From positions 1-57,822 of the IMG/VR virus record IMGVR_UViG_3300043640_000164: DNA of 57,822 nucleotides; one strand, written 5' to 3'. Shown here piece by piece: positions 8,253-57,803 of this stretch. The stretch is from a virus. The position numbers were made by a program, and so were the translations under genes. The notes under the pieces were generated by a model that worked only from the letters and a program-made list of their open reading frames with translations, did no database searches and had not been told where the DNA came from. The number at the start of each line of letters is the position of its first letter. The first letter of the stretch is position 1.

Positions 8253-8758
8253 GGCTCACCGGTATCGACCCGCACGCACTGCTGCTCTGGGCACAGGAGG
8301 CGTACGAGCACACCGCGCCTGGCGAGACCGTGGACCTGCACGTCCTCCCTACCCATTGGGAGCTGCGCGCGATCGACACCAAGTCCCTGATCATCGAGCC
8401 GGAGGCCGCGCCGGTGAACGCGCCGGTGAACGCGCGCGCCGAGACGCCCGCGCCGGTCGGCGTGCGCGCCCGAAGGGCGCCCGCGCAAGATGACGCTGTT
8501 GATCTCGGCCCGGCCCGGTTCACGCACGACTGTGATCACTGCGTGTACCTCGGACGGTGGCGCGGCCAAGACACCTACTGGTGCCCGCAGGGTGGCATGT
8601 CCACGATCGTGCTGCGATGGGGGCACGCCGGCCCCGAGTACGAGTCCGGCACTCATCTCGCAGGGGGCCTGCCCAACGTCCTGCGCTACCGCGCGCTCGT
8701 CGCCGAGGCCGGCCTACCCCTGGATGCTTCGACCGGAACGGAACCGCGCGATGTCTGA
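8249..8758 (+). CDS. Zinc-binding hypothetical protein
   Basis: A 169-aa protein with an N-terminal helical part, an alanine/proline linker (about residues 52-80), and a C-terminal domain carrying HDCDHCVYLGR (Cys95, Cys98) and DTYWCPQGG (Cys112). This pattern is common in small zinc proteins of phages and actinobacteria. The C terminus carries the STGTE-coding intercistronic motif. Function is unknown. Confidence 0.7.
   Translation: MRLTGIDPHALLLWAQEAYEHTAPGETVDLHVLPTHWELRAIDTKSLIIEPEAAPVNAPVNARAETPAPVGVRARRAPAQDDAVDLGPARFTHDCDHCVYLGRWRGQDTYWCPQGGMSTIVLRWGHAGPEYESGTHLAGGLPNVLRYRALVAEAGLPLDASTGTEPRDV
8729..8742 (+). promoter_or_regulatory. Intercistronic repeat motif before a start codon
   Basis: A second exact copy of the 14-mer tcgaccggaacgga, here 8 nt before the ATG at 8751. 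See the copy at 2142-2155. The element is read as STGTE in the upstream protein. Confidence 0.5.
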
Positions 8759-9245
8759 GCTGAGCGGCGGGCCGTGCTACTGCACGCGCGGCGTGAATAC
8801 GCACAACTGCCCGATCCACCGGAACGATGATGACCTGCTGGCGGCGGTGGCGAGGCGACGCTCGGACCCGGCGTTCAAGGCCCGCTTGGAGCGCATCCTC
8901 TCGGAGGAGAAGGCCATCCTCGATCGCCTCGCGCAGTCGGATGACGCCTCTGCTTCGAGCCGAGCGCAGGCGGCTCCCGCGTCGGGCCAGGAGCGAGGCG
9001 ACCAGCACGAGGGCGGTGACAAGGACGTGGACACCGACTGGGCTGAGTACGCCTTGCGTCAGCGCGTGCACGACTCTCGCGACAAGCAGCGGCAAGGCAC
9101 CGTCATTGCCATCTATCACCACTATCACCGCTACGGCGTCAACTGGGACGTCGGTGGCATCCGGGAGGGGATGCCCATGTTGATGCGCCCCGTCCTCGAC
9201 TCCGCGGGCGCGCCCGTCTTTCTGCCGAAGAAGGATGAGTCGTGA
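8751..9245 (+). CDS. Hypothetical protein upstream of integrase
   Basis: A 164-aa protein whose N terminus carries a cysteine cluster (CYC near residue 9 and NCPIH near residue 19, a common phage zinc motif). A charged helical middle and a tyrosine/histidine-rich segment (YHHYHRYGVNWDVGG) follow. It overlaps the preceding gene by 8 nt and the integrase start by GTGA, so integrase translation depends on it. Confidence 0.65.
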   Translation: MSELSGGPCYCTRGVNTHNCPIHRNDDDLLAAVARRRSDPAFKARLERILSEEKAILDRLAQSDDASASSRAQAAPASGQERGDQHEGGDKDVDTDWAEYALRQRVHDSRDKQRQGTVIAIYHHYHRYGVNWDVGGIREGMPMLMRPVLDSAGAPVFLPKKDES

Positions 9246-10783
9246 GCAAGCGCAACGCCATCGTCAAGCGCGGACCATCGGGCTTGGAGACCACGCCTCC
9301 GAAGGTCAAGCCCAGCGGCAAGACGTACGACATGGTCATCCGTGTCTCGCGTCGCGCCGGCCGCAAGGGCAGTACGTTCATCTCGCCCAAAGAGCAACGG
9401 GCGAAGTGCATCGCCTGGATTGAGGCCAACGGCCACACCCTGGGCCTGGACCACGACGAGACCGATTCCGTGTCCGGCAAGACGACCGACCGCGTAGGGC
9501 TCAAGTACGCCATCGAACGTGCGGTCGCCGGAGAGACCTCGGGCATCGTCGTGGCCAAGCTCGACCGGTTCTCGCGCAACGTGTCGTCCGGGCTGGCGGC
9601 CATCAAGCAGTTGGAGGACGCCGGCAAGGATCTCATCGCCGTCTCAGAGGGGATGACCGGCGGCGCCGAGGAGCGCACGAACCCCACCGCCAAGCTCATG
9701 CGGACGCTGTTCCTCGCCTTGGCCGAGTGGCAGTGGGACTCGTTTCAAGAAACCTGGAGCACGTCGCGCGAGAACCACATCGACCGCGGGGTTCACGCGG
9801 GCGTGCCGTTCGGCTACATGCGCGCCGAGTCGGGGACGCCGCTAATCATCGACGCGGAGGCAGCGCCCTACGTGCTGGCCATCTTCGTCCGCCGCGCCGC
9901 CGGGGAGTCCACGCCGTCGATCGCCCGCTGGCTGAACGACCTCGGGGTTCACACGGCGACGGGCGCACAGTGGACCGCGCAGCGCATCGTCCAGGTGATC
10001 AAGTCACGGACCTACGTCGGCGAGGCACGGTCGGGCAAAGACCTTGTCAACCCAGCAGCGCATCCAGCGATCGTCACTGAGATGCAGTGGGTGAACGCCA
10101 ACGCGGCGGGCACGTCGACCAACGACCGGCGCGTGAACGGGGCCTACCTCTTGCGCGGCGTCGTGCGGTGCACCAGCTGCGGAAGCAAGATGGCCGGGCT
10201 GACCGACCGCGGCCGTCGCTACCGCTGCCGCCGAACCTTCAGCTGGGGAACATGCCCGGCGCCGGCCAGCGTCACGGCAGACGAGGTGGAGAAGTACGTC
10301 ACCGCCGAGTTCTTCAAGCGGTACGTCCACGTCACCGTTGCCGGCGGCGGCGATGACGTCGGGCGCCTCAGCGCCGCCGAGGACGAGTTGGCCACGGCGC
10401 TGGAAGACCTACGTCGCTACCGCGACAACACGGTGGTGCGAGACGCGTTGGAGGAGGCCGGAGAAGGCCTCTTCGAGGAGGGCGTGACCGAGCGGGCCAA
10501 CCGCGTCAAGGCGGCTCGCGTCGCTCTTGGAACGATCAAGGCGCAGGCGACGGGCCTGCTCGTGCCCGATGACTTGGAAGACAACTGGGACACGTTGGAG
10601 ATCAACGACCGCCGAGAGCTAGTCGCCGCAGGGTTCGACGCTGTCATGGTCAAGCCCCCGGGCCGCAACCGCTGGGAGACGTCGCCCATCAGCGAGCGTG
10701 TCCGCGTCTTCGGGCGAGGCGAGGCGCCGGACGACCTGCCCGGGAAGGGTGGAGGTCGACTGATGCGCCCGGTCAACTTTTGA
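9242..10783 (+). CDS. int: Large serine recombinase (phage integrase)
   Basis: A 513-aa site-specific recombinase that would integrate and excise the phage. The N-terminal resolvase domain has the catalytic serine at about residue 36 (VIRVSRR) and the conserved KLDRFSRN arginines at 106-113. The recombinase domain follows (GVPFGYMR, then an SIARWLN helix-turn-helix near 225-260). The zinc ribbon has Cys310, Cys313, Cys329 and Cys338, with a coiled coil downstream (about 365-430). Its length matches large serine integrases. The GTG start overlaps the upstream TGA. The gene ends facing the cytosine methyltransferase; the 98-bp gap is the natural place for attP. Confidence 0.95.
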   Translation: MSKRNAIVKRGPSGLETTPPKVKPSGKTYDMVIRVSRRAGRKGSTFISPKEQRAKCIAWIEANGHTLGLDHDETDSVSGKTTDRVGLKYAIERAVAGETSGIVVAKLDRFSRNVSSGLAAIKQLEDAGKDLIAVSEGMTGGAEERTNPTAKLMRTLFLALAEWQWDSFQETWSTSRENHIDRGVHAGVPFGYMRAESGTPLIIDAEAAPYVLAIFVRRAAGESTPSIARWLNDLGVHTATGAQWTAQRIVQVIKSRTYVGEARSGKDLVNPAAHPAIVTEMQWVNANAAGTSTNDRRVNGAYLLRGVVRCTSCGSKMAGLTDRGRRYRCRRTFSWGTCPAPASVTADEVEKYVTAEFFKRYVHVTVAGGGDDVGRLSAAEDELATALEDLRRYRDNTVVRDALEEAGEGLFEEGVTERANRVKAARVALGTIKAQATGLLVPDDLEDNWDTLEINDRRELVAAGFDAVMVKPPGRNRWETSPISERVRVFGRGEAPDDLPGKGGGRLMRPVNF

Positions 10784-13506: not shown

Positions 13507-13790
13507 CGCCGCCACTCCAGCGCGTCGACCACAGCTGCCTTGACGCCCGCCAGCTGCTCGCCCGTGGGCTGACCGCTCACCGTTATGGCCAGCGCGATCG
13601 GCGCTGGCCGGTCTCCGATTAGGTCCGTCAGCCAGTCGCGGAGCGCGCGTGCCTGAAGTTCGGTGATCCACACCGCCGCGTCGTGGGTCTCGCCAGCTAT
13701 CGTCACGCAGGCCATGGCGGCGGGTCCCTCGTCAACCTCGAACTGCACGCGGTCGCCGTCGTTGTCGGTCCATCTCAGGGGTTGAAGCAT
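13503..13790 (-). CDS. Hypothetical protein
   Basis: A 95-aa protein, strand-rich at first (VQFEVDEG, AMACVTIAG), then a helix (LQARALRDWLTDLIG). ATGA couples it to the zinc-finger gene, and its start overlaps the ATPase stop by one base. No family is recognised. Its place directly behind the AAA ATPase hints at a replication accessory role. Confidence 0.65.
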   Translation of the reverse strand: MLQPLRWTDNDGDRVQFEVDEGPAAMACVTIAGETHDAAVWITELQARALRDWLTDLIGDRPAPIALAITVSGQPTGEQLAGVKAAVVDALEWRR

Positions 13791-15037
13791 CAGTCGTCCC
13801 TCTCGCCGAGCATCCGTTGCATGACCTCATAGGCCTCGGGGCTGCGATGGCCGTTGCCTTCGATCTCGTCGTCTGAGACCGGGCCGCTGCCGTTGGGCGT
13901 CCAGGTCGGGTCTTCCTCCCAGGGCGGCTTGGTCCCCTTGGCTCCGATCCACCAGACGCCGAACTTCGTCCCGGGCGCTTTGCGCTTGGCAAAGCCCTCG
14001 CTCGCCGACCGGTAGACCTTGAGCGAGCAGTGGGCCATCGCCGCCTTCTTGACGACGGTGCTCGGTAGCCAGGCGCCATCGAGTACGTCACGGATGAGCC
14101 CCTGGATCTCAGCCTGCTCCGAGCGCTCGTCCGGGGGCATGAGGAGGTCGCGCGCGGTCAGGTCCGTCTTGCCGGTGACGATCGTCCGGGATGTGGCGAT
14201 CGGCTCGTTGGCCCTGTTGCGGACCGTCGCGTCCTCGATCTCCACCTTCAAGGCGTGCTCGCCCGACTTCGCAAGGTTGGACTTCATGATGAGGAAGACC
14301 TTGTGGCTGCCGCGCGTACCTTCCTCGTCCGCGGGGTCGGAGCTGAACAGCGTCACCGAGCGGGCCATGGCCGTGAAGGCGGTGGACTCAATGACGCGGT
14401 CAAGCGGTTCGCCGCCCGCACCGTTCTTGTTGAGGTGGGTCACGCAGATCACGGCCGCGCCGGTCACCTCGGCCAGGGCCTTCAGGGGCGAGAGCGCCTG
14501 CCGCACCGACGCGTTGCGGTGGGTGTCGGTCGCCGCATCGAAGAAGCTGGAGATCGGATCGATGATGATGCACTTGACCGACCGCTTCGCCATCGCGCGA
14601 CGAAAGGCGGCGCCGTCCGAGGGCAGCGACAACGCGGCCTCGATCATCGAGCCCTCGTGGTCGGCCTCGCGGACGTCGAGGATGTTGATGCGCTTCAGGT
14701 CGGCGCCCACCGCCATGAGCCGCGGGGCGATCGTGTCGTTCGGGTCGTCCTCGGCGCTGACCATGACGACGTCGGCCGCGCCACGAAGGTCACTCGGATG
14801 AATGTCCCCGGTGGAGACACCGCCGGCCAGCATCGTCATCAGCTGCGACTTGCCCTGACCGGCGGGCCCGGCGACGACCGACAACTTGCCCAGCGGGAAG
14901 TACGGGCGCCAGAGCCACTTGATGGACTGGGCGTCGAGTTCGGATGCGGATCGCAGCAGTACGTCGCGAGCGCCGGGCGCGCGGCGCCTCGGGGGTGCGG
15001 CCTCCTCCAGGGGGATCCAGTCGCTCTCTGCGCTCAT
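13790..15037 (-). CDS. RepA-like AAA ATPase / helicase
   Basis: A 415-aa RecA-fold ATPase of the RepA/AAA_25 type, probably the replicative helicase or its loader. Walker A is GPAGQGKS (57-64), the catalytic acidic pair is AEDD (95-98), Walker B is CIIIDP (156-161), and THLNK (200-204) is the sensor-like motif. The start at 15037 is preferred because its ATG overlaps the upstream TGA; the longer frame is out of place. The C-terminal part (after about 300) resembles a winged-helix region and ends acidic. It follows the zinc-ribbon gene, an arrangement like a split primase-helicase. Confidence 0.85.
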   Translation of the reverse strand: MSAESDWIPLEEAAPPRRRAPGARDVLLRSASELDAQSIKWLWRPYFPLGKLSVVAGPAGQGKSQLMTMLAGGVSTGDIHPSDLRGAADVVMVSAEDDPNDTIAPRLMAVGADLKRINILDVREADHEGSMIEAALSLPSDGAAFRRAMAKRSVKCIIIDPISSFFDAATDTHRNASVRQALSPLKALAEVTGAAVICVTHLNKNGAGGEPLDRVIESTAFTAMARSVTLFSSDPADEEGTRGSHKVFLIMKSNLAKSGEHALKVEIEDATVRNRANEPIATSRTIVTGKTDLTARDLLMPPDERSEQAEIQGLIRDVLDGAWLPSTVVKKAAMAHCSLKVYRSASEGFAKRKAPGTKFGVWWIGAKGTKPPWEEDPTWTPNGSGPVSDDEIEGNGHRSPEAYEVMQRMLGERDD

Positions 15038-15886: not shown

Positions 15887-16291
15887 CTAGAACGGGATGT
15901 CGTCGTCAGACGTCACCGCGCCAGGGCCCGCCGGAGCGGGCACCGGCGCGTAGCGCGTAACAGGCTGGTCGGGCTCGGGCCTGCCACCGACGAAGGACAC
16001 GTCACTGGTCGCCACCGATAGTGCGGCGCCGGGCTCGCCGTCGCGCTTGAGGAACGCACGCACATCCGCGACGCGCCCGTTGATTGCAACCTCGCGACCC
16101 TTGGCGAGGTACTGCGCGCAGGCCTCGGCGCTCTTGCCGAACACGGACACGTCGACCCAGACCGGCGACTTGTCGCCGTAGCGCTCCACTGCCACCGACA
16201 TGTTGCAGACCATCCCCCCATCGGGCATCGCTCGAAGCTCAGGATCGCGTCCGAGATGCCCGGTGAAGTTGTAGCTGTTGAGAGATGACAT
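15887..16291 (-). CDS. ssb: Single-stranded DNA-binding protein
   Basis: A 134-aa OB-fold SSB that coats single-stranded DNA during replication and recombination. It has the family start (NSYNFTGHLGRDPELR), a VWVDVSVFGKSAE strand-turn, and an acidic tip DDDIPF at the very C terminus, the partner-docking motif of bacterial SSBs. It is shorter than host SSBs, having a short linker. Its ATG is preceded by taggacaac, where TAG is the stop of the upstream gene. Its own TAG is followed 3 nt later by the in-frame GTG of the endonuclease. Confidence 0.95.
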   Translation of the reverse strand: MSSLNSYNFTGHLGRDPELRAMPDGGMVCNMSVAVERYGDKSPVWVDVSVFGKSAEACAQYLAKGREVAINGRVADVRAFLKRDGEPGAALSVATSDVSFVGGRPEPDQPVTRYAPVPAPAGPGAVTSDDDIPF

Positions 16292-25125: not shown

Positions 25126-25185
25126 CTAGCCGAGGCGGACAAAGGTGACGCGGAGCCAGCAGTTGGTGGAGCACATCGGGCTCAC
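25126..25185 (-). CDS. Possible 19-aa mini-ORF
   Basis: A GTG overlaps the spike stop (GTGA) and opens a 19-codon frame ending in TAG at 25126-25128. The next gene lies 21 nt on, in the same frame, with another TAG between. It fills an otherwise empty 77-nt gap and may only pass ribosomes on to the wedge gene. It ends within a 14-bp perfect palindrome at 25121-25134. Confidence 0.3.
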   Translation of the reverse strand: MSPMCSTNCWLRVTFVRLG

Positions 25186-26822
25186 CCGACCCTCAACGGG
25201 GTGGCGGTCATCCAGCGATTCAGCATGGCGGGGTTGACGCCCGCCGTTCCCGCGTTTCGATAGCGGGACGCGATCGTTACGGCTCCGAGGCCGGCCTTTC
25301 GGCGACGGCGGGAGATGCTGGCAAGGTGGCTGCCCGCGTGCGAGTCCTGGTAGAAGCGACAGGCGTCGGCGTCGGCAGCGGCGGTAGCCCCGATGGCGTA
25401 GGACATACGGATGTCGGCCGTGTTCACCGTGGTCGGCATGTTGATGTATGCCTCAAAGCCGATGTCCACGATGTAGTCCCCTGCGAGCGGGAGCGTGATG
25501 GACGGGCCTGCGGTCGGTCCTGCGGCGTAGACCGCCGACGTGATGTTCTCGTTGGTGGTCTGCTCATCCGAAAGCGGACCGCCGCCGATGACCTCCCACT
25601 TGTAGGAGCCCGCGATGGTCGAGTCGTAACGCAGATGCCACGCGGGCTGCCCTGCGGTCTTCATCGCCGCGGTGCGGAAGTAGACCTCGTCACCATCAGT
25701 GGGACCGACCGGGAGCGTGGTGACGAGCGGGATAATCGACTTGCCAGCGGGGAAGGACGCCTGGTCCGTCCCGAAGCTGGATGTCCCAAAGTCGGTGTAG
25801 ACGGCGTTCACAGCCGAGACGTCACCATTGGTACTGACCGTGATGAACGCCGGGGCACCGTTTGAGACGACAGACAGGTTGAGCGCGCGCAGTGGTCGAT
25901 AGCCGACCGGCAGTGTGAACGCGATTCCGTTGGCCGTGCCGCTCTTGACCACACCCTCGATGTGGACGAAGCCTGCCGGGTCCTTGCGGAAACGCGCCGG
26001 GCGCGCTGCGTCAAAGCCGACCCAACCATTTTGGTAGACAGGCTCACCGGTCGTGCCGACGACATGCCATGCCTCCTGCGTGACGGAGGCCACCGGCCCC
26101 GTTGCACCAGTCGCACCCTGGGAAGCGACCAGCGCCCAGTTAGTGACATCGACGTCCGGCGTTGGCGCAGACGTGGTGCCCGCCAGGAGGCGACGGTAGG
26201 AGCTACCGTTGTATAGGACAGCATCATTGACGGCGTAGGCGGTGAGCCCCGACCACGTGCCCCGCCACGTGAGCCCTGCGGGTCCGATCGCCCCGGCGGT
26301 GCCTGTCGCGCCCGTAGCGCCCGCGGGCCCGGTCGCACCCGTAGCGCCGGCAGCGCCGGCAGCGCCCGCGGGCCCGGTCGCACCTGTCGGACCAGGTACC
26401 CCCGGTACACCGTCGGCACCGTCAGCGCCATCGGCTCCGGAAGGGCCGGCGGGACCGGTGTCGCCGGTGTCGCCCTTGGGGCCGCGCGGTCCCTCGGGCC
26501 CCTCCGGTCCGGGAGGACCGGGCTCACCATCGCCACCGTCGCCAGGGCTCGACCCGTCGGTGTCCGGTTCGCCGTTCCACCAGCAGACCACCCACAGGTT
26601 GCCCTCGTCGCTCTCGCAGCAGAGTGCGGCGTCGCCGGCCGCGGGGGCAGGGCCGGGCTGAGCCAGCCATGGACATGCACGAACGTAGCCGTGCTGAGCG
26701 TCGACGACGACGCGCAGGAAGTTGTCCGCGTCGAAGACGGGGTCACAAACCGTGGCCTCCAACATCACCGAGGGCAACGTCGCGCGCGCCCGGTCGCGAC
26801 CGAGATCAGAGAGAGTCGTCAT
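25182..26822 (-). CDS. Baseplate spike fused to collagen-like and fibre domains
   Basis: A 546-aa composite tail protein. Residues 1-85 resemble an OB-fold spike/gpV-type base (LEATVCDPVFDADNFLRVVV, WLAQPGPAPAAGD). Residues about 99-183 are an uninterrupted Gly-x-y collagen-like repeat. Residues about 186-232 resemble a carbohydrate-binding module (WRGTWSGLTAYAVNDAV). The rest is a fibre-like strand-rich tip. It likely forms a trimeric stalk projecting from the baseplate to bind host sugars. The ATG lies 6 nt after the lysin TAG, in frame. Confidence 0.7.
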   Translation of the reverse strand: MTTLSDLGRDRARATLPSVMLEATVCDPVFDADNFLRVVVDAQHGYVRACPWLAQPGPAPAAGDAALCCESDEGNLWVVCWWNGEPDTDGSSPGDGGDGEPGPPGPEGPEGPRGPKGDTGDTGPAGPSGADGADGADGVPGVPGPTGATGPAGAAGAAGATGATGPAGATGATGTAGAIGPAGLTWRGTWSGLTAYAVNDAVLYNGSSYRRLLAGTTSAPTPDVDVTNWALVASQGATGATGPVASVTQEAWHVVGTTGEPVYQNGWVGFDAARPARFRKDPAGFVHIEGVVKSGTANGIAFTLPVGYRPLRALNLSVVSNGAPAFITVSTNGDVSAVNAVYTDFGTSSFGTDQASFPAGKSIIPLVTTLPVGPTDGDEVYFRTAAMKTAGQPAWHLRYDSTIAGSYKWEVIGGGPLSDEQTTNENITSAVYAAGPTAGPSITLPLAGDYIVDIGFEAYINMPTTVNTADIRMSYAIGATAAADADACRFYQDSHAGSHLASISRRRRKAGLGAVTIASRYRNAGTAGVNPAMLNRWMTATPLRVG

Positions 26823-40673: not shown

Positions 40674-40988
40674 CTAGGCCTCCTGCGGGGCGTGCTGCTG
40701 AAGCCAGCTGACGCTCGACTTGGGCACGACGACGGCGCCGGGAATCGGCTGCTCGCCGGCGCTGGTGACGTACTTGGCGCCTTCGAGCACGAGGCGGTCG
40801 GCGTAGTCACCGATCAGGACGCCGTGCAAGGTTTGGTCGTCGGGCTTGTTGGTGTGAACGGTCACCAGCGAGCCGTGTGCGATCTGCGCCTTGCGGTCGG
40901 CGCCGACCACAACGCTGGCGCCGACCACCAGCACGATGAGCCCGATGAGCCCTGCGATACAGACAATCGTCAGTTGGCCCGTTGTCAT
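40674..40988 (-). CDS. Small membrane-anchored protein
   Basis: A 104-aa protein with an N-terminal membrane segment (about residues 5-30, TIVCIAGLIGLIVLVVGASV) and a soluble strand-rich tail (TLHGVLIGDYADRLVLEG). It is ATGA-coupled to the large terminase, which is odd for a membrane protein. It may be related to DNA entry or to a packaging-site anchor, but that is only a guess. It ends in TAG. Confidence 0.65.
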   Translation of the reverse strand: MTTGQLTIVCIAGLIGLIVLVVGASVVVGADRKAQIAHGSLVTVHTNKPDDQTLHGVLIGDYADRLVLEGAKYVTSAGEQPIPGAVVVPKSSVSWLQQHAPQEA

Positions 40989-42559
40989 AGGAGTCCGATC
41001 CGGTAGTCGTCCACGTTGATCGGGGGCGGCCCGATCGCCTCGCCCACCGCGACGCTGTGGACGGCCTGGCCGGCCGACAGTGCGTCGATAACTCGCTGGT
41101 CTTGGCCGGTCGCGGAACGGGTCTGCGACGGACGATCGAAGACGACGTCGCCGCGCGGCAGGATCCGCGCGCGGGCGTTGAGCACGTGCGCGGTCAGGTC
41201 GGGGTGCCCGGTGTGCTGGAGCGTCGGCGCGGGCTCCGCGCGTAGGCCTTCGTAGAACCGCTGGGCGGCTAGCGCCTGGGCCGTGTTGCCGTTGGAATGG
41301 ACGATGACTCGGGCGCCGATGTGCTCGGTGATCCACTCGGCGAGTTGCTCGCCGCCGGCCGCGCCGTCCATCACGAGCGTGTGGATCGGGTTCACAAGGT
41401 GTACGTCCATGAGTGCTTGCTGAACGCGGCTTGGTGGGGTTGACGTCCCGTCGCGCGGCGGCACGATCACGGTGGGGTCGAGGAAGACGTGGCGCGTCTC
41501 ATCGGGGCGCCACAGCGGGACGATCGCCGTGGTGTCCCAGGTCCAGCCGAGGTCGAGGCCGACCCAGACCGGCTCGCCGGGGCGCGGGCGATCGTCGGTG
41601 CGCGCGTCCTCCCACTCCTGCGCGTTGACCGCTGCGCTCTCGCCGCGGACGACCTGGTTGCACGTGAACCGGCGCCAGTGCTCAGGGGTCATGGACGGTG
41701 ACTTGCGCTTGCGCGTCAGCCCGGCGACGGTGACGCCGCTGAAGGGGTTGGCGGCCTTGACCGCTTCCATGTCCTCGGGATCCTCGGTCTCGGGGACCGC
41801 CCAGCGGTGAACCACCATGTCGCCATCGGTGAGGCGCTGGTGGGAGGGCTCGACCTGCTCGGCGTTGCCGTCGCGCTTGATGCGCGCGATGGTCTGCTCG
41901 AACTCCCCGCCGGGCTCACCGGCGGTGCTGATGGCGACGACCTGTCCGCCGCGCTTGTCGAGCTTGCCGCGCCACACCCGATAGAGCCGCATGTCGCGGT
42001 GGCGATGCAGCTCGTCAATCAGCGCGAGCGTCGGGATCTCGCCGTCGCCGGTGCGCTCGTCGGCGCTGTAGACCTGAATCAGGCCGCTGGTGCGGTGGGC
42101 GACGATCCGGCGGTAGCCCTCGAAGACCCGGAACCGCCGCTTCAGCGATGGCGTCCTGGACACGAAGCCGGCGGCCTGCCCGAGAAGTAGGCCGCACTGG
42201 TCGCGCGACGACGCGGCGAGCAGCACCTTCGCGCCGCCGGTGTAGTCGGCGTGGTAGAGGGCCGCTAGGCCCATGAGCGTGGTCTTGCCGTTGCCCTCGG
42301 GGACGACGACCCAGGTCTCGGTCACGCCCGCGAACAACTCGTCCATCACGCACAGTTGAAACTCCTCGGCAACGAACGGATCCCCGTTCTCGAGGATCGC
42401 GACCCCGGTGTAGGCCCGGAAGTGGTCGACGGTGAACGGGGTAAGCGGCCGGTGCGCGGTGGCGTCAGCTCTTGCGCCCGGCGCGGCGCGGGGCGAGTTC
42501 GACAACTTGCGCGTCGAGCGCGTCGAGCGGGTCGGTGGAGGGGGCGACGTGGGGGGCAT
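40985..42559 (-). CDS. terL: Terminase large subunit
   Basis: A roughly 524-aa DNA-packaging motor. Walker A is EGNGKTT (about 88-94), Walker B with catalytic Glu is LALIDELH (about 188-195), and the nuclease domain begins at VWVGLDLGWTWDTTAIV with a later VMDGAAGGEQ aspartate. The N-terminal part (TVDHFRAY, AEEFQLCVMDELF) is typical. The exact start is unsure: ATG 42559 overlaps the small subunit by 95 nt; TTG 42505 is an alternative. It is coupled to the small membrane gene by ATGA. Confidence 0.93.
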   Translation of the reverse strand: MPPTSPPPPTRSTRSTRKLSNSPRAAPGARADATAHRPLTPFTVDHFRAYTGVAILENGDPFVAEEFQLCVMDELFAGVTETWVVVPEGNGKTTLMGLAALYHADYTGGAKVLLAASSRDQCGLLLGQAAGFVSRTPSLKRRFRVFEGYRRIVAHRTSGLIQVYSADERTGDGEIPTLALIDELHRHRDMRLYRVWRGKLDKRGGQVVAISTAGEPGGEFEQTIARIKRDGNAEQVEPSHQRLTDGDMVVHRWAVPETEDPEDMEAVKAANPFSGVTVAGLTRKRKSPSMTPEHWRRFTCNQVVRGESAAVNAQEWEDARTDDRPRPGEPVWVGLDLGWTWDTTAIVPLWRPDETRHVFLDPTVIVPPRDGTSTPPSRVQQALMDVHLVNPIHTLVMDGAAGGEQLAEWITEHIGARVIVHSNGNTAQALAAQRFYEGLRAEPAPTLQHTGHPDLTAHVLNARARILPRGDVVFDRPSQTRSATGQDQRVIDALSAGQAVHSVAVGEAIGPPPINVDDYRIGLL

Positions 42560-42926
42560 CGTCGGGTCGGGCGATCGGCCGGCCCCAGCGCTCGGGGGCC
42601 TGGCGTTCCAGCAGCCACGCGGCGGCCTTCCAGTCCTTGGCGGCGGCGGTGGCGATGATCGCCACGTTGCGGGACTCCGCTTCGGCGCGGGCCTGGTCGA
42701 CGCGCTCGCGGAAGGCGCGATACGGCGCGTCGACCGCCTTGGTACCAGTGGCGTCGCCGCGGGCCATCCATCCGTAGAACGTGCGCTTGGTGATGCCCGC
42801 CACCGCGGCGGCAGTCTCGACGTAGCCGCCGGAACGCAGCACCGCCACGATCCGATCCGCGCTCTCGTCGGTCAGCTTGGTGGGGCGGTGCCCGCGGACG
42901 GGAGCCGGGGCCGGGTCATCAGCCAT
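42465..42926 (-). CDS. terS: Terminase small subunit
   Basis: A 153-aa protein with an N-terminal helix-turn-helix (ADRIVAVLRSGGYVETAAAV, then ITKRTFYGWMARG), a coiled central helix (YRAFRERVDQARAEAESRNV) and a proline/acidic end. This is the usual shape of small subunits that recognise the packaging site and recruit the motor. It lies directly before the large subunit and its start overlaps the methyltransferase stop by one base. Confidence 0.85.
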   Translation of the reverse strand: MADDPAPAPVRGHRPTKLTDESADRIVAVLRSGGYVETAAAVAGITKRTFYGWMARGDATGTKAVDAPYRAFRERVDQARAEAESRNVAIIATAAAKDWKAAAWLLERQAPERWGRPIARPDDAPHVAPSTDPLDALDAQVVELAPRRAGRKS

Positions 42927-44098
42927 CAGGCGCGCTCCGCTTCGAGGCCGGTGTGACGCTCCCAGCGATCCACGATCACATCGCAGTAGCCGGCGTCAAG
43001 CTCCAGGCCGAAGCAGGTCCGCCCGACCTTCTCGCACGCGATGAGCGTGGAGCCGGAACCGAGGAACGGGTCGGCGACGACGCACCCGGCCGGCGCCCAG
43101 CGGTCGAGAATTTCCGCGAGCAAAGGTGTCGGCTTCTGCGTGGGATGCACGCGGTTGCTTGCCTCCGCACCGAACGCGCCGTACATGAAGAACCGCAGAA
43201 GGTCGCGCTTGTGCGGGCGCCTGCTCCAGAGAAGTTCGAAGCCGCTGCCCGGCGTGATGTCCGTGGCCTCGTTGCGCTTATCCCAGACCAGCCAAGACCC
43301 ATCGCCATCGTTTGCACTTAGGGTGCGGCGGTAGTAGTCGGCACCGAACCAGAACTGCTCAGCCACCGAGGAGAAGTAGGTCGACAGCGGCGCGGCGTCG
43401 AAGGGTTGGTCATCGCCGGCCACGGGACGGTAGATCCGCTGCGGCTGGTCACCCAACAGTCCCCTGCCGGGCCGGTTCGGACGCTTGGTGTAGTTGGTGT
43501 CTAGGCTGATCCCGTACGGCGGATCGGTGAGCACGCAGCCGACATCCACCCCGGCATAGAGCCGGTCAAGGTTCGCCGGGTTAGCAGAGTCACCGCACAG
43601 CAGCCGATGCTCACCCAACATGTAGAGGTCGCCGAGCTTCGTCCGAGGGTCCTCGGGCACGTCGCCCGGGGCGGTGTCGTCCTGGCTGGATGCACCACCG
43701 GCGTCCGCCAGCAACGCATCCAGATCCATGGGCTCGTAGCCCGTGCCGTCGAGGTTGGGCAGCGATGCCAGTAGAGCCGTGAGTTCGCCATCGTCGTAGC
43801 CGGCGACGTCGTTGGAGCGGTTATCGACCAGGACGATCCGGGCTGCCTGGTCCTCGTCTACGTCCACGAACGTGGCGGCCACGTCCTGCCAGCCCAACTC
43901 GCGCGCGGCGGCGAGCGTGTGGTTTCCGGCGAGCACCTCAGAGGTGCGCCGGTTGACGACGATTGGCCGGTACTGACCATTGATCGCGAGTGAGCTTTTG
44001 ATCGCCTCTACTGAGCCACGGCGCGGGTTGCGTCCATACGCACGCAGTGATGTCACTGGCACGCGCAGATCGGAGAGGGTGTCGGGAATCTCGGACAT
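42926..44098 (-). CDS. ParB-domain DNA methyltransferase (adenine N6 or cytosine N4)
   Basis: A 390-aa protein with an N-terminal ParB/sulfiredoxin-type domain (about 12-100: NPRRGSVEAIKSSLAINGQY, GNHTLAAARELGW) and a class beta-type methyltransferase domain with DPPYG (192-196) before FLGSGST (355-361) and HPTQKP between. Such fusions are common in phages and modify phage DNA to resist restriction. The ATG at 44098 is chosen over 44155 because the latter overlaps a likely promoter of the divergent HARE-HTH gene. It lies at the head of the late operon, before terminase. Confidence 0.9.
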   Translation of the reverse strand: MSEIPDTLSDLRVPVTSLRAYGRNPRRGSVEAIKSSLAINGQYRPIVVNRRTSEVLAGNHTLAAARELGWQDVAATFVDVDEDQAARIVLVDNRSNDVAGYDDGELTALLASLPNLDGTGYEPMDLDALLADAGGASSQDDTAPGDVPEDPRTKLGDLYMLGEHRLLCGDSANPANLDRLYAGVDVGCVLTDPPYGISLDTNYTKRPNRPGRGLLGDQPQRIYRPVAGDDQPFDAAPLSTYFSSVAEQFWFGADYYRRTLSANDGDGSWLVWDKRNEATDITPGSGFELLWSRRPHKRDLLRFFMYGAFGAEASNRVHPTQKPTPLLAEILDRWAPAGCVVADPFLGSGSTLIACEKVGRTCFGLELDAGYCDVIVDRWERHTGLEAERA

Positions 44099-44112
44099 CT
44101 GTGGGAAATCGC

Positions 44113-44145
44113 TTGACTTTCTGGGCGCGCCGAGCGAGTTATGTG
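44113..44145 (+). promoter_or_regulatory. Putative promoter of the HARE-HTH gene
   Basis: TTGACT at 44113-44118 and TTATGT at 44139-44144, with a 20-nt spacer, longer than ideal. It is the only TTGAC sequence upstream of the gene at 44197, and it lies over the start of the divergent methyltransferase gene, which could couple control of the two. Confidence 0.4.
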
Positions 44146-44196
44146 TTCGCGGCATTTGGGCCGCGGTACCAAAACCCCATCAGCGAGGGACGAACC

Positions 44197-46559: not shown

Positions 46560-46874
46560 TCAGGCGACCGGCGGCAGCTGAGCGCCGCGCCCGTAGTTGC
46601 AGCTGGCGCACGCGGGCACGAGGTTGCCGATGTGGCCGCCGCCGCGGGCGACGGGGATCAGGTGGTCGGCGGTGACGGCCGGCGCTGAGCACCAGTGGCA
46701 CGTCGGGTACCCGGCGAGGATCCGTGCCCGCTCGCGGTAGTACGTGGCGTCCTGGGCCCGGGTGGTGGGGCTCCGGCTCGCGCGCCCGACCGGAGCATGG
46801 ACAGCGCACCGCCGGTCGGTGGGGCCGGCGGGCGTGAACGGCGCGCCGCAGACCTGGCAGGCGCGCATGGTCAT
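46560..46874 (-). CDS. HNH endonuclease
   Basis: A 104-aa HNH protein with intact motifs: N-terminal CQVCG pair, then a TCHWCSAPAVTADHLIP block (Asp-His about 70-71), GGGHIGNLVPACASCN (Asn84, Cys89, Cys92, Asn93). In many phages such a gene next to terminase helps packaging; here it is about 4 kb upstream of the terminase operon, beyond the non-coding region, so a packaging-linked nicking role or a free homing role is possible. Confidence 0.85.
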   Translation of the reverse strand: MTMRACQVCGAPFTPAGPTDRRCAVHAPVGRASRSPTTRAQDATYYRERARILAGYPTCHWCSAPAVTADHLIPVARGGGHIGNLVPACASCNYGRGAQLPPVA

Positions 46875-46884
46875 CGGTGCCTGA

Positions 46885-46937
46885 TCTCTCGCGCGCGTGC
46901 GCGCACGTGGCGCGCGCGAGCGCGCGCACGCGAAGAG
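46885..46937. repeat. GC-alternating palindrome (Z-DNA-prone)
   Basis: About 50 bp of nearly pure alternating C and G flanked by ctct and agag: left arm from 46886 and right arm ending 46937 are imperfect inverted complements around acgtgg. Alternating purine-pyrimidine of this length favours Z-DNA or cruciform extrusion. It sits just upstream of the HNH start, at the edge of the 9-bp repeat array. Confidence 0.6.
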
Positions 46938-46948
46938 ACCCGGGCAAC

Positions 46949-47200
46949 TTGGACAAGTTGATGTCTGTTGGGCCTCTTGGTGATGTTGGGCAAGTTGGGC
47001 ATGTTGGGCTTCTTGACGGTCAACTTGCCCAAGTTGCCCCAGATCACAAGTAGGTCAGGGGGGGCAAGTTGACTCGGGTCAGTTGGGCCAATTGGATTTG
47101 TTGGGCAACTTGGGCAAGTTGGGCATCTTGGTGCAGTTGGACAACATGGGCGCCTTGGAATTGTTGGGCGCCTTGGGGCAGGTTGGGCAACTTGACTGAG
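46949..47200. repeat. 9-bp periodic repeat array (iteron-like)
   Basis: TTG triplets recur every 9 bp: 46977, 46986, 46995, 47004, 47013 in one block and 47083 through 47173 (eleven in register, one as ATG) in another, with looser copies at both ends. Consensus unit ttgggcaac/g. Between the blocks (47021-47040) the unit appears inverted (caacttgcccaagttgccc). Unit length 9 fits iterons bound by replication or partition proteins. A TTG-started 38-codon frame with Leu-Gly-x repeats crosses block two but lacks a ribosome binding site. Confidence 0.65.
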
Positions 47201-47369
47201 CGGGCGAGCCTTCGCTAGGGTCCGGCGCGGCCGGATGGGGGCGCCGCGATGGGGCGCTGGGACGGGGGCGATTCTGAAGGCTGTAGTCCCCGCCCCGGCA
47301 CCGCTCGGTGGCGCCCCCGCTGCCCGGCCCGGCGACCGGCAGCATCGACAAGGAATAGGACAACGAGCG

Positions 47370-47447
47370 ATGAAGACCTGGGCGTGGAAGTGGAAGCAGG
47401 TATGGCTAAGACTGCGCGGGCGGCCGTACGCAGACTGGCGTGACTGA
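47370..47447 (+). CDS. 25-aa tryptophan-rich basic peptide
   Basis: A possible rightward mini-gene: MKTWAWKWKQVWLRLRGR begins it, with five tryptophans and eight basic residues in 25. It has a fair ribosome binding site (aggaataggacaa). Its ATG lies in an otherwise non-coding 742-nt region on the strand opposite to the lysis genes. A hairpin follows its stop. Trp/Arg-rich peptides of this kind can disturb membranes or bind nucleic acid. Evidence for expression is only contextual. Confidence 0.4.
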   Translation: MKTWAWKWKQVWLRLRGRPYADWRD

Positions 47448-47452
47448 ACGAT

Positions 47453-47482
47453 CCGGCCCGTAGTAGGGTCGCCGTGGGCCGG
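47453..47482 (+). terminator. 7-bp GC hairpin after the mini-gene
   Basis: CCGGCCC (47453-47459) and GGGCCGG (47476-47482) around a 16-nt loop, 6 nt after the stop of the tryptophan-rich frame. There is no T-run. Confidence 0.35.
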
Positions 47483-47528
47483 GAGGGAATCGCGTCGGGG
47501 CTCCGGGTTAGGTCCCTTCGGGGAGCGC

Positions 47529-47620
47529 CTAAGAGCCCGGCCGGGGGTTGCACCGCGGCACGTTATGCGGACGCGCCCTCCCGGCACCCCTGCGATCGGA
47601 CGCGCCCTCCCGGCTCTTAG
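47529..47620. repeat. Direct and inverted repeats past the endolysin stop
   Basis: The 18-mer cggacgcgccctcccggc occurs twice (47568-47585, 47597-47614). Both are enclosed by ctaagagcccgg (47529-47540) and ccggctcttag (47610-47620), an inverted pair overlapping the endolysin stop. The arrangement suggests a mobile remnant or a structured 3' end. Confidence 0.5.
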
Positions 47621-48881: not shown

Positions 48882-49445
48882 CTAGGTGGCGCGGCCGGCG
48901 CGCCAGATGGTGGTAGCGGGGACGCCGCTGATCGCCTCAGCCTGCCGATAGGACAGGCCGAGTTCGACCAGCGCCCGTGCGCGCTCGCGCGCGTCGACCG
49001 GCAAGGGCTCAGACAACGGGTCGCCGTACTCGGGGTCCAGGCCGCCCTCCACCCGGGCGACGCGCACCAGGGACTCCGTGCAACGCATCGCGAGCGCGAC
49101 CTGAGCCGGCGCCCAGCCGGCGCACTCCACGATGCGCCCCTTCAGGTCGTCCAGCGTCTCCACGGCGGTCGGCGCGGTCAGCGGTCGGCGCTTCCACGCG
49201 TCAAGCTCGGCGCTCGCCTCGGCCATGATGCTCTCGACGTCGGCGCCAGGGACGCGCAGAGCATCTACATATCGAAGGTGCGGTGGCGCCGACTCCCCGG
49301 TCGGCAGCACCTGGGCAGTCTCACCGCCTCGTCCGGCAAGGGGCGATAGGCTCGCCGTCGAGCCATGCGACAGGAGTTCCAGCCCGATGAGAATCTGTCG
49401 CTGATCGAAGCTCAGTCGCGGTGTGGCGGTGGAAGCAGCGCCCAT
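48882..49445 (-). CDS. Helix-turn-helix protein, candidate late or lysis regulator
   Basis: A 187-aa protein with two HTH-like blocks in the C-terminal half: GWAPAQVALAMRCTESLVRV (about 109-128) and RARALVELGLSYRQAEAISG followed by VPATTIWR (about 155-183). The N-terminal part is flexible. It stands alone with its own promoter candidate (TATGAT at 49457-49462) and terminator, upstream of holin and endolysin in the same direction, so it could switch on the lysis or late genes. The family is familiar from actinophages but uncharacterised. Confidence 0.65.
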   Translation of the reverse strand: MGAASTATPRLSFDQRQILIGLELLSHGSTASLSPLAGRGGETAQVLPTGESAPPHLRYVDALRVPGADVESIMAEASAELDAWKRRPLTAPTAVETLDDLKGRIVECAGWAPAQVALAMRCTESLVRVARVEGGLDPEYGDPLSEPLPVDARERARALVELGLSYRQAEAISGVPATTIWRAGRAT

Positions 49446-57671: not shown

Positions 57672-57803
57672 CCGATCCTGCGAGCAAGGCGAGACAGCTG
57701 GCCGCTGCCGCTGACGAGCGGTGGGCGGGGCTGGCCACGCAGACCCGTGAGGCGCACGGGCGTCTGGACGCGGCAGGGGTCGGGCGCGTTGACCATGAGG
57801 GCA
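57668..57803 (+). CDS. N-terminal part of the joint-crossing gene
   Basis: ATG 57668 overlaps the Fic TGA. The frame continues to base 57803 and, after the 126-bp overlap with bases 1-126, on to 344. As the window is linear the true C terminus is given in the first entry. From 57804 the frame runs into adapter sequence and is not real. Confidence 0.8.
57678..57803. repeat. Terminal overlap identical to bases 1-126
   Basis: Bases 57678-57803 are identical to 1-126. With de Bruijn assemblers such an end overlap marks a circular contig. Genome length without it and the adapter is 57,677 bp. Real phage terminal redundancy of 126 bp is possible but less likely. Confidence 0.95.

Follow-up and report, generated by a model that had tools for sequence, protein, structure and literature searches.

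What does the array of 9-bp repeats do that lies between an HNH endonuclease gene and a possible lysin gene in this 57,822-base virus record (68% GC)? The window, by which we mean the whole stretch of DNA analysed, is the complete record, and its ends overlap exactly over 126 bp (1–126 = 57678–57803), which makes a complete circular genome of about 57.7 kb probable. The first-pass annotation had compared the array with the iterons of a replication origin or with a centromere. Our analysis favours an iteron-type replication origin, with a probability of roughly 0.6, because related 9-bp arrays adjoin the same kind of helicase gene in many other phages.

The array and the gap that holds it

The array occupies 46942–47196 (255 bp), slightly wider than first annotated, and has a 9-bp period. 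Its parts and immediate surroundings are as follows.

46875–47616, no strand: non-coding gap of 742 bp holding the array, between the possible lysin gene and the HNH gene, with no GC3 signal in any frame
46890–46932, no strand: imperfect CG-rich palindrome of 43 bp beside the array, with 17-nt arms (82%)
46942–47018, plus strand: putative iteron block 1, degenerate 9-bp units around CAASTTG / TTGGGC (GGGCAACTT GGACAAGTT ... TTGGGCAAG TTGGGCATG TTGGGCTTC), from the register and repeat tables and the exact and 1-mismatch units
47019–47041, minus strand: inverted units CAACTTGCC CAAGTTGCC, opposed to block 1 across a short spacer (inverted repeats I1, I2, I3, I4 and I11)
47042–47061, no strand: spacer from the inverted units to block 2, by its sequence not AT-rich in itself
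47062–47196, plus strand: putative iteron block 2 with in-phase TTGs, from the register and repeat tables and the 1-mismatch units

The periodicity is far above that of 2000 dinucleotide shuffles, with a lag-9 identity of 0.545 against 0.269 ± 0.029 (maximum 0.374) and 16 TTG-to-TTG pairs at 9-bp spacing against a shuffle mean of 0.6 and a maximum of 4; the autocorrelation has its peak at 9 bp (0.54) and echoes at 18, 27 and 36. The unit is TTGGGCAA(C/G), which gives self-complementary CAASTTG cores every 9 bp with GG between the cores. Genome-wide, TTGGGCAAS with at most one mismatch occurs 46 times (15 ± 3.5 expected), ten times inside the array, where five sites are perfect, and 9 of the 16 CAASTTG sites of the genome fall in the array. 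There is no second cluster of array-type sites elsewhere in the genome. Another stretch with a 9-bp period was noticed at 26249–26566, within a long minus-strand ORF (25182–26822); it probably has no relation to the array and encodes collagen-like Gly-X-Y repeats in a protein of the tail region.

The array is thus real, with about 11 and about 5 copies as annotated, but its register is not strict throughout and most of its units are degenerate. Strict register holds only within the blocks, as 1-bp shifts occur: block 1 contains six successive in-phase TTGs (46968–47013), preceded by two with a phase offset of 1 bp, and block 2 has TTG at 10 of 11 in-phase positions (47083–47173), followed by two more with a 1-bp offset. 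Both blocks are mostly in plus orientation, and the inverted stretch described earlier does lie between them, at 47019–47041. Moreover, the arms 46973–47006 and 47021–47054 are 79% complementary, and the single-strand fold of 46940–47080 has a z of −6.8; the Rfam search matched no known RNA, and the tRNA search found none. No other 255-bp stretch of the genome is as low in GC as the array (55.3% compared with 67.9% overall; GC percentile 0.00016), and no clear separate AT-rich unwinding element was found inside it (array 55% GC).

The array is also non-coding, as the first-pass annotation had supposed. GC3 in the gap is 0.66–0.69 in all frames, compared with 0.80–0.93 in the adjoining genes, and the 1-bp register shifts break any reading frame; together these rule out a coding repeat. 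What remains is a set of short repeats in fixed register within non-coding DNA, as is expected of an iteron origin. The palindrome on the flank, earlier given as 50 bp of alternating GC, is present, but it is 43 bp long and imperfect, and its strictly alternating purine-pyrimidine run is only 20 nt, although this is the longest in the genome. Its folding does not exceed that of shuffled sequences (z −0.7 and −0.9), and the proposed role as Z-DNA found no support. The same gap contains, at 47565–47616 and beside the possible lysin gene, a direct repeat of CGGACGCGCCCTCCCGGC.

Genes of the window and candidate binders

From the array, the minus-strand order is HNH, small genes, a ParB-N/DNA-methyltransferase fusion, the small and large terminase subunits, portal, capsid and contractile tail. 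The genes that bear on the question are listed below.

9242–10783: integrase (phrog_95; also matches DNA invertases)
13790–15037, minus strand: AAA_25 (RepA/DnaB-type) helicase, candidate binder of the array (PF13481, E 3.7e-27)
15887–16291, minus strand: SSB, near the helicase gene (PF00436, E 5.9e-18)
40985–42559, minus strand: terminase large subunit, TerL (phrog_9, E 1.8e-62; PF03354)
42465–42926, minus strand: terminase small subunit, TerS, the candidate binder if the array were a packaging site (phrog_4102, E 1.5e-33)
42926–44155, minus strand: fusion of a ParB N-terminal domain with a DNA methyltransferase, a common phage protein, beside the terminase genes
46560–46874, minus strand: HNH endonuclease, adjoining the array (PF01844 and PHROG matches)

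No near relatives were found by megablast among GenBank phages, by TerL or by the possible lysin gene, and the DNA search of GenBank phages gave HNH fragments only. The replication genes recognised in the window are those for the AAA_25 helicase and the SSB. The helicase has a profile match to RSF1010 RepA (1g8y, E 7.5e-9), and the core of a model built from a 31-sequence alignment (pLDDT 84.8) is similar to RSF1010 RepA (1g8y, Z 20.8, rmsd 3.1 over 215 residues) and to DnaB (4esv, Z 21.4). It therefore has both the profile match and the hexameric helicase core fold of the AAA_25 / RepA-type class. In the same model, residues 302–364 follow the order helix-strand-helix-helix-strand-strand, and the C-terminal domain is predicted to be a winged helix, a prediction read off the helix/strand order of the model; the structure searches listed the helicase core only. 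In AAA_25 homologues, what follows the C-terminal domain is a tail or the gene end itself, and it is here that the array is located.

A centromere found no support. Judged as parS, it would consist of perfect 14–16 bp palindromic sites beside a parAB operon, whereas the units here are repeats in 9-bp register and no ParA was recognised among the proteins scanned. The window does encode a ParB-like protein with a nuclease-type domain (DUF6551), in addition to the ParB-N/methyltransferase fusion. Nothing supports binding of the array by the DUF6551 protein or by the HTH pair, which had both been proposed as binders, and the AAA_25 helicase is the better candidate.

Arrays of 9-bp units beside helicase genes

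Relatives of the array were sought by DNA pattern in two scans of IMG/VR and one of bacterial genomes. The matches were scattered; some are coding, some are isolated minisatellites, and several lie at the 3′ ends of replication-helicase genes. Four of the loci (L047, L058, L062 and L144) encode an AAA_25 helicase homologous to that of the window (29–33%) and have the array at the 3′ end of the gene. In L025 a different AAA_25 protein is followed by the array and then by a primase, and in L055 the array occurs with a primase/helicase. Separately, TTGTGCAA/CTGCAATTT-type 9-bp units form an array of roughly 500 bp at 8600–9150 of L048, a contig that also carries a DNA helicase gene, and many contigs of a single Candidatus Parabeggiatoa genome (L141, L142, L145–L147, L152 and L154–L156) share a dispersed element with TTTTGGGCAACTTGGGCAACTTGGGCAACT.

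As an independent test, AAA_25 homologues were fetched by protein only, giving 80 loci in 43 clusters. A 9-bp array (score at least 7) lies no more than about 1 kb from the 3′ end of the AAA_25 gene in 11 of the 43 clusters, a count to be read with the fact that the query alignment took in four DNA-pattern loci and can favour their kin (three contigs returned, in two clusters). Random blocks of the same contigs gave 0.6 ± 0.7 arrays and never more than 4 in 1000 draws, although these blocks are mostly coding and gene ends are partly intergenic. A strong array near the AAA_25 gene is absent from the other 32 clusters, and in most of the full records of contigs lacking a nearby array no convincing one was found elsewhere.

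The units of the helicase-linked arrays differ by lineage (GAAGATGCC, CAAGGTGCC, CAAGTTGCT, GAAGATTCC, GACGTCATG, GTGAGAGAA and others), and the arrays are often laid out as a direct set, a spacer and an inverted set. Unit similarity correlates at 0.30 with similarity of the winged helix and at 0.33 with that of the core, so on these sequence comparisons any covariation of winged helix and unit appears inseparable from shared ancestry. The opposed layout is also found in an isolated phage, Microbacterium phage Squash, at the end of the primase/helicase gene 72, where the order is GTGTCACAG GTGTCACAC CTGTCACAC - TCGGTCGAA - GTGTGACAG GTGTGACAG GTGTGACAC.

L157 32577–32762 (NC_047975 about 46576–46761): candidate origin of Squash, opposed units GTGTCACAG / GTGTGACAG around a short spacer

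Mycobacterium phage Larva has a 9/18-bp direct array, CAAACATCT CAAACTCGT (L158 47027–47238; NC_023724 about 61026–61237), close to HNH gene 98 and to the right end of the genome; the array is overlapped by the short annotated gene 95.

Several observations tie the array of the window to these helicase-linked arrays. Its unit agrees with 6 of the 22 family units at seven or more of the nine positions, a result reached by none of 1500 shuffled or random 9-mers, and the exact 9-mer CAAGATGCC is common to L170, L216 (either strand) and the minus strand of the window. A motif search over whole flanks picked up coding noise and did not indicate the array; it was rerun on array segments only. The motif trained in this way on 22 helicase-linked arrays, with the window and the DNA-fetched loci left out, is nowhere in the window denser over 250 bp than in the array. 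Scrambled motifs equalled this in 45 of 2000 trials, so that the motif by itself is modest evidence. Furthermore, in L189 and L240 the gene order is AAA_25, array, HNH, TerL and portal. A capsid relative, G070, whose portal is 62% identical to that of the window, has a 9-bp array between a prim-pol/helicase gene and HNH; its helicase differs in kind from the AAA_25 helicase of the window, and its unit (GCTTCGCTC) is simple and present in about four copies, so that it counts as weak evidence. The conservation of register in relatives that the first-pass annotation had asked about is therefore partial, since a 9-bp array occupies the same slot just upstream of HNH in G070 but the sequence of the unit is not conserved. 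In the closest capsid relative (L287) the contig ends at HNH, with the slot of the array outside it.

A probable origin weighed against its rivals and known systems

Through these helicase-linked arrays of other phages, origin iterons are the best-supported of the readings first put forward. In the mechanism that we propose, copies of the helicase would bind the 9-bp units via the C-terminal winged helix, helicase hexamers would assemble or be loaded at the opposed sets of units, the lower-GC DNA nearby would open, and replication would begin at the array. An iteron origin is expected at or near its initiator gene, and those homologues that have an array usually carry it where the helicase gene itself ends; in the window, the 3′ end of the helicase gene has no 9-bp array, and this gene, the sole recognised helicase candidate, is separated from the array by 24 or 32 kb, depending on the direction taken round the circle. 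Binding would consequently be in trans, and action over 24–32 kb is the weakest step of the model. The helicase gene appears to have been moved or replaced while the array kept its slot beside the HNH and terminase module. Cumulative GC skew, which had been suggested as a check, has no turning point at the array.

The best rival is a packaging-initiation site (cos/pac), at which TerS would bind the repeats and HNH would aid cleavage before packaging starts. HNH nucleases often adjoin cos sites in such phages, and here the array adjoins HNH about 4 kb upstream of TerS/TerL; in addition, TTGCCCAAC-type arrays lie directly upstream of TerL in L030 (50–170) and between a small gene and the terminase gene in L010 (4815–4862), and an array lies upstream of a possible TerS in L019. 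However, that possible TerS has no PHROG match, the statistical association is with helicase 3′ ends and not with terminase genes, and the unit of the window resembles the helicase-linked units. Moreover, no comparable array was found in the TerS/TerL relatives with a ParB-methyltransferase (L063–L139). We therefore consider packaging unlikely.

Still less probable is an operator array, whose repeats a regulator of the phage, for instance the HTH proteins (51116, 51858) or the DNA-binding protein encoded at 48882, would bind cooperatively so as to repress or activate transcription nearby. The palindromic CAASTTG cores would fit a dimeric regulator, and the array is intergenic, some 2.8 kb away from the point at which the two directions of transcription diverge; but an operator finds no second site cluster anywhere in the genome, a comparison with the sigma-70 consensus gave no promoter-like match around the array, and in other phages it is helicase genes, not regulators, that the arrays come after. 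We give a similarly small chance to a decaying minisatellite, or a remnant left by the exchange of a module, that now has no function. Degenerate units and register shifts agree with decay, as do the similar short 9-bp arrays that occur sporadically in bacterial genomes without obvious context, whereas slippage would give near-identical copies in one orientation and here the orientation alternates. The CAA/TTG core and the 9-bp phase persist while the remainder varies, and both slot and unit match those of the helicase-linked arrays.

An iteron-type origin thus remains the preferred reading, and a broader proposal can be offered only tentatively, being in our judgement somewhat doubtful: that phages and phage-like elements have in common a class of origin in which a helicase of DnaB/RepA fold uses a winged-helix recognition domain of its own to read a 9-bp code that is specific to the lineage and usually placed at the 3′ end of the helicase gene, and that in the phage of the window an exchange of modules has parted code from reader, which would still function in trans. 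Both iteron origins and the recognition of origins by a helicase are already known; among open-licence papers, no earlier account was found of variable 9-bp arrays tied to winged-helix AAA_25 helicases, and a search for the repeat in six variants gave no match. Origins are seldom located in metagenomic or actinobacterial phages, and a variable 9-bp array at the 3′ end of an AAA_25 gene would be a sequence rule for candidate origins in many uncultured phages. The helicase-linked arrays also offer natural pairs of helicase and recognition code, and isolated phages such as Squash make origin finding by RepA/DnaB-type phage helicases testable.

Among known systems, RepA of RSF1010 (IncQ) has the same helicase fold as the helicase of the window and is its kin in sequence (1g8y). 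The RSF1010 origin has iterons of 20 bp, which are bound by a separate initiator, RepC; the window has no recognised RepC-like gene, and the phage helicase has an extra C-terminal domain. In phage P4, the alpha protein, a replication helicase/primase, recognises short repeats, and the recognition region can lie off the initiation site. The alpha/ori/crr system (crr is named in PMC6092414) differs from that of the window in helicase family and unit. The origin of the V. cholerae PLE consists of RepA-bound semi-palindromic repeats in a non-coding region and is required for replication of this phage satellite (PMC7145576); the array is likewise semi-palindromic and non-coding, whereas the PLE initiator is a RepA_N protein, not a helicase.

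The closest comparison is with the pri-rep-ori of SaPIs and PICIs. The C-terminal domain of SaPI Rep recognises iterons just downstream of the rep gene, according to PMC7581432 (citing Ubeda et al. 2007), and in PICI origins an AT-rich region is flanked by two sets of iterons, deletion of the origin impairing plasmid maintenance (Fillol-Salom et al. 2018, PMC6092414). Like these, the helicase-linked arrays follow directly on a helicase gene and comprise two sets of short iterons with a spacer between them, and the AAA_25 version is found on small mobile phage-like elements that have the same capsid and portal modules. The differences are that AAA_25 here has the RepA/DnaB fold with a predicted winged helix, that the 9-bp unit varies by lineage, and that the array of the window is far from the helicase gene. 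Opposed sets are present in the window, but the spacer between them is not AT-rich and no rep gene lies upstream. We have accordingly filed the array, by analogy, as one that may work like a SaPI/PICI origin and not as a member of that class.
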